Shown here: piece after piece, positions 32,995-55,084 of the stretch
Position numbering within the stretch: position 1 is the stretch's first letter
How the letters are laid out: each line of letters opens with the position of its first letter
From: Leisingera aquimarina DSM 24565
Lineage (GTDB): Bacteria > Pseudomonadota > Alphaproteobacteria > Rhodobacterales > Rhodobacteraceae
Reading direction: 5' to 3'
Assembly (NCBI RefSeq): GCF_000473165.1
Contig: NZ_KI421504.1
Location: 806,596-870,595 of the forward strand
Length of the DNA stretch: 64,000 nt
The notes under the pieces: generated by a model
Told to the model about the DNA's origin: nothing
What the model saw: the letters and a program-made list of their open reading frames with translations, nothing else
The model's database searches: none
Position numbers and translations under genes: made by a program

Positions 32995-33129
32995 GTGTTC
33001 GAGCGTGGCAGCAAGAAAGGCCCGGAGATCGACGAAGAGCAGGGTAAAGAACTGCACGCCAAGATCGGGGAGCTGGCAGTTGCCAACGATTTTTTGCCAC
33101 GAAAGCGCAAGCCGCGGATCGGCAAGTGA
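32995..33129 (+). pseudogene. IS3 orfA, C-terminal part
   Basis: The frame reads FERGSKKGPEIDEEQGKELH, then AKIGELAVANDFLPRKRKP, ending at TGA 33127-33129. This is the leucine-rich C-terminal end of IS3-family OrfA. The helix-turn-helix N-terminus is missing. Confidence 0.8.
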
Positions 33130-33892
33130 GGCGCAAAATGGTCGAACCTGCCAATCCTGAGCTGTCTACCGGCAAGCAATGCAGGCTGCTGTCGATCCCG
33201 CGGCCGTCGTTCTATTACACGCCCAAGGGCGAAACGGCTCTGAACCTGATGCTGATGCGGCAAATCGATGAGCAGTTCCTGGAAACACCGTTCTTCGGTG
33301 TTCGCCAAATGACCTGGCACCTGCGGAGCGAAGGCCATCTGGTGAACGAGAAACGCATCCGCCGTTTGATGCGGCTCATGGGCCTGATGCCGGTCTATCA
33401 GAAGCCCAACATCAGCAAGGCGGCAAAGGGACACAAGACATACCCCTATCTGTTGCGCGGTCTGCGCGGCCGGCATCACCTACCTGCCCCTCTCGGCGGA
33501 TTGCTTCGCAATCGCCTGCCGGGCAATGGATGCGCAAGGGGTTCCTGTATTTGGTGGCGGTCATTGACTGGCACACGCGCAAGGTGCTGGCCTGGCGCAT
33601 CTCGAATACGCTGGAAGCCGGCTTCTGCGTCGAGGCGCTGAACGAGGCAATCCACCGCTTCGGCCCGCCCGGCATCATGAACACCGATCAGGGCTCGCAA
33701 TTCACCTCCTTCGCCTGGACAGACCGGCTGCACCGGGCTGGCGTGCGCATCTCGATGGACGGTAAAGGCCGGTTCCTTGATAACATCTTCGTGGAACGGC
33801 TATGGCGGCCGCTGAAATACGAATGCGTCTACCTGCAGGCTTGGGAAACCGGATCTGAGGCAAGGGCGGGCGTCGGAAAGTGGGTGGAATGA
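33126..33892 (+). pseudogene. IS3 orfB transposase, interrupted and truncated
   Basis: Starting at the GTG that overlaps orfA, the product matches IS3-type integrase-core transposases (KQCRLLSIPRPSFYYTPKGE, RQIDEQFLETPFFGVRQMTW, HKTYPYLLRGLR). Then about 30 bases are missing around the first catalytic Asp, and a 40-base hairpin element is inserted at 33486-33525. The rest is readable in another frame from 33530 (MRKGFLYLVAVIDWHTRKV, MNTDQGSQFTSFAWTDRL, FVERLWRPLKYECVYL) to a stop at 33892, before the normal C-terminus. It is non-functional. Confidence 0.88.
33486..33525 (+). repeat. Palindromic mini-element inserted in IS3 orfB
   Basis: Between ITYLP and MRKGFLYL, adjacent in intact orfB, sits a 40-base element. 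It begins GCCCCTCTCGGC (33486-33497) and ends CGCCTGCCGGGCA (33513-33525), the same outer arms as at 53730-53771. Predicted fold: outer GCCC/GGGC, inner GGC/GCC with one bulged base, then a perfect 6-bp stem GATTGC/GCAATC with loop TTC. Only the core stem and the bulged base differ from the other copy. Confidence 0.75.
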
Positions 33893-52913: not shown

Positions 52914-53588
52914 TCCGCGCTGGACACAACGCCCTGCAAAGGCGGGATAAACTGGTCTCATCAGCCCTGTTTCCATAGGTTTTGCGGTGCGCACGTGGTA
53001 GGTCTCGGCCATGCCAGAGGCCGCTACCGGGATTGCCGGATTGCGCGCCGCACTTGCGGCATCGGAAGCACGTGCCGAAGCTGCCCAGACTGAACTTGCG
53101 CAGGTCCGGGCGGCGGTCTCGACCTCCGAGGCGATGATCAAGCATCTCCGGCTCGAGATCGCCAAACTCCGGCGCGAACAATATGGCCACAGCTCGGAAC
53201 GGCGTGCCCGCTTGATCGACCAGATGGAGATGCAGCTCGAGGAGCTCGAAACTGCGGCCGCCGAGGATGAGACCGCGGCAATGAGGCTGACGAAGGCCGC
53301 GGCCGTGGCCGGCTTCGAACGCCGCCGCCCGGCACGCAAGCCCTTTCCGAACCATCTGCCGCGTGAACGTGTGGTGGTCGAGGCCCCCACCGCCTGTTCC
53401 TGCTGCGGCTCAGATCGCATCGTGAAGATGGGGGAGGACATTGCCGAGACGCTGGAGGTGATCCCGCGGCAATGGAAAGTGATCCAGACGGTCCGTGAGA
53501 AGTTCACCTGCCGGGCTTGCGAGAAGATCAGCCAGCCCCCGGCGCCCTTCCATCCCACGCCCCGCGGCTGGGCCGGGCCGAACCTGCT

Positions 53589-53625
53589 GGCGTTCGCCAT
53601 GCGTTCGCGACCCATGGCGAACGCC
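53589..53625 (+). repeat. 12-bp inverted repeat at the tnpC deletion junction
   Basis: GGCGTTCGCCAT (53589-53600) and ATGGCGAACGCC (53614-53625) are perfectly complementary with a 13-base loop. The hairpin replaces the missing middle of tnpC. It does not share arms with the element at 53730-53771. Confidence 0.7.
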
Positions 53626-53729
53626 CCTTTGGCGGCGGCGCTCCACCTGCCGCTCTGTTCCACTTCTCCCGTGACCGCGGAATGGTCAACCCGAACCGGC
53701 ACCTCGCCGGGTGGCAGGGCATCCTGCAA

Positions 53730-53771
53730 GCCCCTCTCGGCAGCATGGCAGTGCCATGCGCCTGCCGGGCA
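53730..53771 (+). repeat. Palindromic mini-element inserted in IS66 tnpC
   Basis: Between WQGILQ and ADAYGGYN, adjacent in intact TnpC, lies a 42-base element encoding an in-frame 14-residue insert. It begins GCCCCTCTCGGC and ends CGCCTGCCGGGCA, the same arms as at 33486-33525. The fold is the same: outer GCCC/GGGC, GGC/GCC with one bulged A, then a perfect 7-bp stem GCATGGC/GCCATGC with loop AGT. The core stem differs from the other copy yet keeps pairing. Confidence 0.75.
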
Positions 53772-53843
53772 GCGGATGCCTATGGCGGCTACAACGACCT
53801 CTACCGCGCCGGACGCGATCCGGCGCCAGTCAGCAGCGCATTC

Positions 53844-53878
53844 GCCGGTGGGCTCGAACCAGTGGCGCCTTCACCGGC
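53844..53878 (+). repeat. Second in-frame hairpin insertion in IS66 tnpC
   Basis: About 39 extra bases stand between SSAF and CWSHARR, which are adjacent or nearly so in related proteins. Arms GCCGGTG (53844-53850) and CACCGGC (53872-53878) are complementary. On the minus strand the interior holds GGTTCGAGCC, which looks like a tRNA T arm placed beside a 7-bp acceptor-like stem. Sequence differs from the element at 53730-53771. Confidence 0.5.
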
Positions 53879-54481
53879 TCATTGCTGGAGCCATGCCCGG
53901 CGCAAATTCTTTGAGCTCGCCGACATCAAAGGAATAATCCGCAGGGGCAAGCCTGCCCATGACATCTCGCCCGTGGCGCTGGAGGCGGTGGCCCGGATCG
54001 ACGCGGTCTTCGACATCGAGCGCGGCATCAATGGCCTGCCCACCGAAGAACGGCACGCCATCCGGCAACGGCTGTCCCGCCCTCTGGTCGAGGCATTGCA
54101 CGACTGGATGCGCACGGAGCGCGACAGGATGTCGAAGCATAACCCAGTTGCCAAGGCGATCAGCTACATGTTCACCAAGGACCGATGGGCGGCCTTCAGC
54201 CGCTTCCTTGACGATGGCCGTATTTGCCTGACGAACAATGCGGCCGAACGGGCCCTGCGGGGCGTTTCTCCCGGCCGGAAGCCCTGGCTCTTCGCCGGGT
54301 CCGAGCGCGGCGGCGGCCGCGCCGCGTTCATGTATTCCCTGATCGTCACTGCCAAGATGAACGATGCCGATCCCCAAGCCTGGCTGGCCGATGTCCTCGC
54401 CCGGCTGCCCGGCACGACGGCATCCCGTGTGCCGGATCTATTGCCCTGGAACTGGCCCCCGGCCGAGAAAAGGATAGCTGC

Positions 54482-55084
54482 ATGACCCTGATCGCCCGCC
54501 TGCGGATCATCCTGAACGACGTTGATCCTCTGCCTATGCGCCATATCGAGGTGCCGCTGAAGATCAGGCTCGACTGGCTGCATGAGGTTATGCAGGCAGC
54601 TATGGGCTGGACCGATACCCATCTCTATGAGTTCCGTGCCGGCGATGCTGGTTGGGGCATACCAGATCCGGATGGGTTCTATGATGGCCCGTTGCCCGCA
54701 AAGAAAACGACGCTGGAGAAGGTGCTCGAGGGGACCGGCGTCAGGACGGTCCAATATATTTATGACTTCGGCGACGACTGGGACCACAGCATCCGGGTCG
54801 AGGGGGTCAACGATGCCACCCCCGGCGTGCTCTACCCACGGCTTCTCAAGGCCACCGGCGCCTGTCCGCCCGAGGACGTCGGCGGCGCTTGGGGCTACGA
54901 AGAGTTCCTCGAAGCCCTCGCTGATCCCGGCCACGAGCAACACGAGGACATGATCCGCTGGTCGGGTGGCTCGTTTGATCCCGACGATCCCAAGGCCGAC
55001 AGGATCGTCGAGCGGCTTAACCAGCTTGCAAAGAAATGGACTCCGCGGCCCCGCAAACCCAAAACCCCCAAGGGCACTACCTGA
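54482..55084 (+). CDS. Plasmid pRiA4b ORF-3-like protein
   Basis: A 200-residue protein of the pRiA4b ORF-3 family: LRIILNDVDPLPMRHIEVPL at the start, WTDTHLYEFRAGDAGWG, YIYDFGDDWDHSIRVE in the middle and a basic C-terminal tail. The family's function is unknown. ATG overlaps the tnpC stop (ATGA), so it travels as a passenger gene of the IS66 element. It is intact while the transposase is broken. 55085-55268 shows no gene. Confidence 0.88.
   Translation: MTLIARLRIILNDVDPLPMRHIEVPLKIRLDWLHEVMQAAMGWTDTHLYEFRAGDAGWGIPDPDGFYDGPLPAKKTTLEKVLEGTGVRTVQYIYDFGDDWDHSIRVEGVNDATPGVLYPRLLKATGACPPEDVGGAWGYEEFLEALADPGHEQHEDMIRWSGGSFDPDDPKADRIVERLNQLAKKWTPRPRKPKTPKGTT

Follow-up and report, generated by a model that had tools for sequence, protein, structure and literature searches.

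Short Hairpin Elements in Transposase Genes of Leisingera aquimarina and Related Bacteria

Introduction

Rickettsia palindromic elements (RPEs) are hairpin inserts that lie inside open reading frames. MITEs are small, non-autonomous, and present in many copies, and those of DDE transposons are recognized by a target site duplication and by an autonomous parent with the same ends. In the mitochondria of Magnusiomyces, byps are mobile hairpin-forming inserts of about 40 nt that lie in genes. GTAG REPs are accompanied by RAYT (TnpA-REP), an enzyme that is reported to act on a single strand of the folded repeat (PMC8266576). The CGTC-tagged REPs of Di Nocera et al. 2013 (PMC3733652), a paper that also mentions RPEs, are palindromic repeats of 20–40 bp, common in alpha-proteobacteria, some of them intragenic and with no dedicated transposase known. 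They have stems of 8–9 bp, loops of 4–5 nt, a tag within the element, and a CCA tail (PMC3733652).

Here, we analyze a family of hairpin elements represented twice in a 64,000-nt stretch of the genome of Leisingera aquimarina DSM 24565, hereafter the window, and trace it through the rest of that genome and through related bacteria, which are marine and of Rhodobacteraceae type. Among the entries listed by searches of the open-access literature with words and sequence strings, no earlier description of this element family was found.

Two Copies in the Window

Both copies lie on the forward strand. The first, copy 1, occupies positions 33488..33528 (+ strand, 41 nt, CCCTCTCGG...GGGCAATG) in an IS3-type orfB, where the covariance model scan matches positions 33485-33536 with 73.1 bits. 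Copy 2, at 53732..53774 (+ strand, 43 nt, CCCTCTCGG...GGGCAGCG), is inserted in an IS66 tnpC between the flanks GC and GATGCC, and is matched at 53729-53782 with 57.4 bits; its ends were set by analogy with homologue comparisons at other copies. The preliminary description had reported that the arms around copy 2 (5' arm 53730-53741, 3' arm 53759-53771) are identical to those near copy 1 (33486-33497 and 33513-33525), and that the arms enclose different inner stems of 7 bp and 6 bp with 3-nt loops. The arms stand where it placed them and the stems are as it stated, but the element ends used here differ by 2–3 bases from the insert ends that it gave. The variable apical part of copy 2 (53742..53759, + strand) consists of a bulged A, a 7-bp stem (GCATGGC/GCCATGC), and a 3-nt loop (AGT), and that of copy 1 (33498..33513, + strand) consists of an extra base, a 6-bp stem (GATTGC/GCAATC), and a 3-nt loop (TTC).

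Comparison of the empty site in locus L090 with the same site in L141 suggests that copy 1 is a net insertion of 40 nt (CTGCC^GATGCGC). For copy 2, codon reasoning against an IS66 protein would give a net insertion of 42 nt, presuming that the ancestral codons were GCN-GAT. At both window copies, the ends used here may overstate the net insertion by one base.

Both host genes are degenerate. The IS66 tnpC (53011..54485, + strand) is already split around copy 2 between two frames, its ORFs 53011-53937 and 53517-54485 overlapping, and apparently lacks an internal stretch that other IS66 proteins have; a relative elsewhere in the same genome is 75% identical and aligns in pieces. This tnpC also contains a second palindrome (GCGTTCGCCATG...CATGGCGAACGC) at window positions 53589-53623, beside the apparent internal deletion. 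The IS3-type orfB (33126..33892, + strand; ORFs 33126-33641 and 33530-33892) has three further copies in the genome, of 90–95% identity (one of them partial), and each carries the same element.

Structure of the Element

The family comprises hairpin elements of 34–46 bp (about 41) built of CCCTCTCGG, a free self-complementary stem-loop, and CCTGCCGGGCARYG. In aligned copies, CCCTCTCGG is followed by a closing pair, in some copies a bulged base (mostly A), the apical stem-loop, and CCTGCCGGGCARYG; the apical stem measures about 3–10 bp, and the loop is mostly 3 nt. We analyzed covariation in 41 distinct copies of the commonest length, from which the covariance model was built, by comparison with 500 shuffles. 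In these 41 copies, 98.6% of cells are paired, and nine of the 12 pairs have changed on both sides. The covariation score is 0.425, compared to 0.098 in shuffles, and there are 69 doubly changed cells, compared to 19; neither value was reached by any of the 500 shuffles, and the signal is gone once the partner is slid by one to three columns. A larger set of 200 distinct copies has C-G as its closing pair in 140, G-C in 40, and T-A in five; the outer pair 4-39 is G-C in five and A-T in two, and in pair 6-37, T-A replaces C-G in seven. An alternative fold pairing CGGCAG with CTGCCG, preferred on energy, was rejected because positions 13-30 exchange C-G for G-C, which this fold does not accommodate.

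Constant arms around a compensating stem had been read in the preliminary description as the mark of a mobile element selected for its fold, and the covariation supports this reading, with mobility taken on an evolutionary scale. The outer stem, drawn there as GCCC/GGGC, has to be shortened: covariation supports CCC/GGG (positions 4-6 with 37-39), and the outermost pair forms in 114 of 200 copies despite a search pattern that favored it. A single arm is not significant within the window, the count of the 3' arm being reached by 28 of 100 shuffles and that of the 5' arm by 19 of 100. The two-arm pattern gave five matches in the whole genome, and its reversed control gave none. Searching Rfam with 151 bases around the IS66 copy returned a best match of 17.5 bits, compared to a gathering score of 54.5.

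Numbers and Distribution

Further copies in related genomes, on which the mobile nature of the element had been made to depend, proved to be many when searched for with the covariance model. The 5.34-Mb L. aquimarina genome has 93 model matches at E ≤ 1 and 88 at E ≤ 0.001, counts that may be low, with 150 of 6399 first-look candidates scored. Of 120 genomes of the same family, 53, L. aquimarina among them, have at least one match at E ≤ 0.001, and a class-wide draw yielded matches in 11 of 289 genomes, five in the same family (again with L. aquimarina) and six outside it; in both draws the filters were stricter, and few candidates were scored per genome. At E ≤ 0.01, 84 plasmid records have a match, the commonest names being nearly all roseobacter-type genera, and phage records have none at E ≤ 0.1. 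The two-arm pattern occurs in at least 115 stretches of species-representative genomes. Among 80 matches listed by title, the sources are overwhelmingly of Rhodobacteraceae type, with few other alphaproteobacteria; one Fibrobacteres match has the arms and no stem, and two Hoeflea matches have a weak stem at best.

Some copies are set in wider repeats. Two intergenic short-stem copies (L191, G000:C1:2306855-2306899, and L192, G000:C2:51266-51310) lie in unrelated gene neighborhoods and have a similar flank that in translation reads FSQILP, as if this were a portion of a larger intergenic repeat. Long-stem copies (L012, L020, L056, L091; L033, L048, L059, L074; L013, L018) occur in larger repeated contexts that lie outside recognizable transposases, with flanks such as CCGCGGGACGG before the element and TCGATGCCCGGCGCCTTCGGC after it; these contexts apparently represent a different nested repeat.

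Residence in Transposase Genes

Nearly all placeable copies lie within transposase genes of several unrelated IS families. We took the coding segments adjoining 213 distinct junctions, 167 of which have homologues among the others, and scanned 150 with Pfam after dropping repeats and near copies; the scan covers this homologue-bearing set, and the 46 junctions with no homologous segment stand outside it. The resulting tables count families, not members, and some segments had no match. The families found include rve, HTH_21, DDE_Tnp_1 and its relatives, rve_3, IstB_IS21, and DDE_Tnp_IS66, together with Y2_Tnp, Zn_Tnp_IS91, Transposase_mut, DDE_3, HTH_33, Phage_integrase, and a few more alike. 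From these labels, annotations, and the usual assignment of domains to IS families, we take the host families to be IS3, IS4/5, IS21, IS66, IS91, IS256, and IS630. Since the same hairpin unit is found inside other IS families, the 14 residues that copy 2 adds are unlikely to be an ancestral feature of intact IS66 transposases. Non-transposase exceptions are limited to PhoH and AAA_25 (one member each) and one Porin_4; PhoH overlaps IstB, and the Porin_4 match is below the cut-off on a segment that also matches IS66. By comparison, 88 random positions taken from the same loci, at least 1.5 kb from any element, yielded 67 families, all with a single member, and the 25 of these that were listed include one transposase.

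The loci fetched from the L. aquimarina genome contain 90 copies (the window IS66 copy not included) at 37 independent sites, two of which are clearly intergenic. Of 30 segments from these loci, 19 have a match at E ≤ 0.01 to a transposase, an integrase, or a transposase-type HTH, which in four cases lies only below the curated cut-off, and several of the 11 without a match read as transposases by eye; when the 30 were scanned singly, none matched solely an unrelated family. In two further loci, L163 and L186, two of seven segments, one per locus, match IS66 and rve. All eight matches on pDSHI04, a plasmid of 86 kb, fall outside listed genes, in a gene table that is incomplete by design, and two of the four flank kinds share their site with copies in other loci.

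Insertion Ends, Target Site, and Recurrent Insertion

The element (model positions 4-44) was cut out of 256 matches, and the joined flanks were compared with all loci; alignments with more nearby gaps, or with element arms in the partner, were removed before junctions were counted. An uninterrupted homologue was found for 96 of 200 distinct junctions, and the join is exact, gapless within 8 columns, at 68 of these 96. The other 28 divide into 10 that are one base short, 10 that have one base extra, usually about three bases into the right flank in the printed alignments, and eight that are otherwise different. At the level of the family, this comparison with uninterrupted homologues, proposed at the outset as a way to fix the exact ends and any duplication, defines the ends and reveals no target duplication at the junctions compared. 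For instance, an IS256 copy in plasmid record CP069018 (L210) contains 41 nt absent from annotated IS256 transposase genes in NZ_CP049038 and NZ_CP136701, and an IS3 copy in CP070878 contains 42 nt absent from both the copy in NZ_CP025584 (89% identical) and the annotated IS3 gene of NZ_CP065893. One attempt, on Pseudosulfitobacter plasmids, to find the element both present and absent at a single genomic address gave no such pair; of 53 matching records, 30 showed 100% identity across the compared stretch, and no polymorphism was seen.

The target logo reads YC^GAYG, with frequencies of 0.68 for C at -1, 0.80 for G at +1, 0.69 for A at +2, and 0.86 for T or C at +3 (97 junctions outside the exact-pattern kind). 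A correlation between element and target letters was discarded, being strongest with flank positions fixed by the search pattern itself; a weaker one, linking the closing pair to target position +4, may stem from subfamilies.

Altogether, 227 distinct copies occupy 159 sites, 32 of which recur, many of them in IS copies merely 66–80% identical. Shared sites hint at old, inherited insertions, but a tree of 19 IS5-type copies has one site occupied on several separate branches whose sisters are empty. This scattered occupancy makes inheritance unlikely as a general rule and points to probable repeated hits on the same sites, although an inherited insertion may be common to some sister copies. At a recurrent IS3 site (L024, L066, L090, L208), the right flank of several copies has an additional base two positions past the junction (GT to GTG or GTA).

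Orientation, Length, and Reading Frame

Protein similarity identifies the coding strand clearly at 96 of the 213 junctions, with 75 elements in sense and 21 in antisense orientation. Counted by independent sites, the bias is 50 to 15 (n = 65, P = 1.6e-5), and the nearby YCGAY motif is balanced (342 sense, 356 antisense); a cruder count over 167 junctions gave 122 sense and 45 antisense. With the ends used here, the lengths of the 213 distinct copies are 2 mod 3 in 118 cases, 1 mod 3 in 64, and 0 mod 3 in 31. The claim that the insert keeps the reading frame is correct for copy 2 alone, with its 42 nt, and does not extend to the family. Codon phases are distributed 46:19:10 among the 75 sense insertions and 93:45:23 for the target motif; thus, insertions follow the motif. 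All six frames are free of stops in 128 of 213 copies, compared to 10.5% of shuffled copies, in a set whose members share a consensus and hence are not independent. Exact removal of the element gave frames of at least 150 aa in 102 of 188 cases, compared to 71–78 for shifted joins and 86 for the uncut sequence; in only 72 of the 188, however, did the exact join exceed both forward shifts in length, and this test is weak in G+C-rich DNA.

Element-Bearing IS Copies

An IS21 in locus L057 carries ten elements of 37–39 nt in its two genes, six in istA and four in istB, of which six are sense and four antisense; an eleventh lies outside these genes. With the elements cut out, istA forms an open frame of 521 residues that contains Mu-transposase C-terminal and integrase-core domains, while istB is complete except for one base at one junction. 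The ten insertions seem to have accumulated more quickly than other damage. They fall within L057:600-2864, with differing stems and in both orientations, and the adjoining gene, transporter-permease-like by eye, is without a match.

In the L. aquimarina genome, eight IS5-type copies of 94–100% identity lie at separate places, six full-length and two partial or broken up, and all have element matches. Their separate places imply movement of the element-bearing IS, whether in cis or in trans. This genome yielded no element-free IS5-type copy at 90% identity or above, and two copies of 75% identity also have a match. In eight IS5-type copies that were read through, further frameshifts or stops were seen by eye.

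Search for a Mobilizer and an Autonomous Form

No mobilizer was found. The L. aquimarina genome encodes three Y1 transposases in an IS200-like element whose ends are unlike those of the hairpin elements. A Y1 transposase was rejected as the mobilizer, since PF01797 is absent from 15 of 20 other genomes with at least five matches; it is present in five of these 20 element-rich genomes, compared to one of 20 genomes without matches. The IS200-like element is about 560 bp long (L171, L173, L198), occurs in L. aquimarina and one other genome, and in one place adjoins hairpin copies; the Y1 gene near an element in L198 is of this same kind.

In 1.05 Mb of loci, there is no longer, gene-bearing form, and no arm pair encloses a gene. 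Fourteen matches to the 3' arm lie outside the hit list in these loci, namely 10 complete short elements, two at a contig end, and two that look like chance. An autonomous version with distant arms was rejected for this 1.05 Mb: the arm pairs printed are 27–32 nt apart or bridge two neighboring complete elements.

Models of Mobility and Residence

In our judgment, the family is probably a non-autonomous hairpin element of about 41 bp, moved in trans by a recombinase and spread by riding in IS elements; we hold this reading with moderate confidence. The trans-supplied recombinase would recognize one folded strand, in which the 5' arm is flush with the helix and the 3' arm ends in a 5-nt tail (CARYG), and would join it into a target exposed as single strand. 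Such single-strand joining would account for the lack of duplication, the need for a fold and not for a particular stem sequence, and the strand bias. Insertions into host genes would be lost, while those into IS elements would cost the host nothing or benefit it, and IS transposition would then copy the IS-borne elements and carry them between genomes. Through loss from host genes and carriage by IS, the surviving copies would be those that ride in IS elements. Several points count against this account: the lack of a mobilizer and of a gene-bearing form, the 28 non-exact junctions, the coverage of the orientation count (96 of 213 junctions), and the failed attempt to pair filled and empty sites at one address. 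In addition, a transcription-exposed target should catch host genes too, and IS carriage alone fails to explain the ten-element IS21 of L057.

Residence in IS elements can reflect loss elsewhere combined with carriage, or it can reflect targeting. In the latter case, a dedicated mechanism would insert folded hairpins specifically into transposase genes by reading the transcribed or exposed sense strand, acting either as a parasite of IS elements, much as these are parasites of genomes, or as a genome defense by which IS elements from many unrelated families are tagged and disabled. The repeated hits, the L057 IS21, and the sense bias leave targeting some probability, but a minority one, because the target is short and no machinery for it is known; such a mechanism is unlikely.

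An improbable alternative is that the elements are REPs mobilized by a RAYT (TnpA-REP) or an IS200-type Y1 transposase, with the bottom-strand flank CRTC serving as a CGTC tag. The size, the hairpin with its internal loop and bulge, the lack of target duplication, the tetranucleotide CRTC beside one end on the bottom strand, and the three Y1 genes of L. aquimarina fit this idea, as do the reported abundance of CGTC-tagged REPs, greatest in alpha-proteobacteria, and their ability to lie within genes (PMC3733652). However, the would-be tag belongs to the target and not to the element, and it is absent at some sites; the stem, loop, and tail rules of the CGTC family are broken, the commonest form having a 3-nt loop. 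PF01797 is absent from most of the element-rich genomes (15 of 20), no REPtron arrangement was seen, and logos of element and flank show no GTAG consensus on either strand. The location is also the reverse of extragenic, with copies residing in transposase genes and two intergenic sites in L. aquimarina.

We regard as quite improbable a marking or silencing device for IS elements, by which a host or parasitic system would deliberately put hairpins into transposase genes, perhaps guided by transcription or foreign-DNA status, and so lower the IS load. It would explain why copies, in contrast to the control positions, sit in transposase genes of several unrelated IS families, with only two of 37 independent L. 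aquimarina sites clearly intergenic, why they favor the sense strand, and why one IS21 has ten of them in genes that show at most one other lesion. Yet the target has only about six informative bases and is common everywhere, an identical pattern could arise from loss in genes combined with IS carriage, and element-bearing IS copies have multiplied nonetheless. We know of no gene for such a system.

It is very improbable that the element is a mini-intron removed from the message, or a site of ribosome skipping like that of mitochondrial byps, which keeps the transposase functional. The single 521-residue istA frame with its transposase domains, obtained across six removed elements in L057, would suit it, as would the multiplication of element-bearing IS copies and the sense bias; of the ten copies in the L057 genes, however, four lie antisense, occupancy on the IS5 tree is scattered, the eight IS5-type copies that were read have extra frameshifts or stops by eye, and the insertion phase follows the target motif.

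Copy 2, which adds 42 nt in frame, had suggested a protein-coding palindrome of the Rickettsia RPE type, selected to add in-frame residues, and the openness of all six frames in 128 of 213 copies (10.5% in shuffles) might seem to agree. This reading is now largely refuted by the lengths, only 31 of 213 being multiples of three; with the phase following the target motif and with hosts that are mostly transposases, many of them broken, we consider it highly improbable. Chance similarity or an assembly artefact, for which the non-significance of a single arm in the window might speak, is refuted by the reversed pattern with its zero matches, the stem covariation, the 53 of 120 family genomes, and the finished plasmid records.

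Returning to the mobile hairpin, its interest lies in a mobile unit pared down to a fold of 41 nt, with a short target, that is present in 53 of 120 genomes of a family. If carriage explains its residence in IS elements, it clearly exemplifies a parasite of parasites; if targeting does, bacteria hit transposons of unrelated families by an unseen route. Either way, many broken transposase genes in these bacteria are explained, and the family offers a simple model for duplication-free, fold-dependent DNA insertion.

Comparison with Known Systems

Like MITEs, the hairpin family is small, non-autonomous, and present in many copies; unlike them, it has no target duplication, and no parent transposon was found in 1.05 Mb of loci. 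It differs from RPEs in that its lengths are mostly not multiples of three and its hosts are transposases. With byps, it shares hairpin inserts of about 40 nt in genes, but it occurs in both orientations, and we make no claim of splicing or bypass. The family has a bulged hairpin in common with GTAG REPs and differs from them in having no consistent RAYT/Y1 partner. It resembles CGTC REPs as a short, alpha-proteobacterial palindrome with intragenic copies, and it departs from them in its sequence-free apical stem of about 3–10 bp, its long, fixed arms, and its residence in transposase genes. In summary, although it fails the REP/RAYT, CGTC REP, RPE, and MITE tests made here, the family works like a REP or another duplication-free hairpin element.
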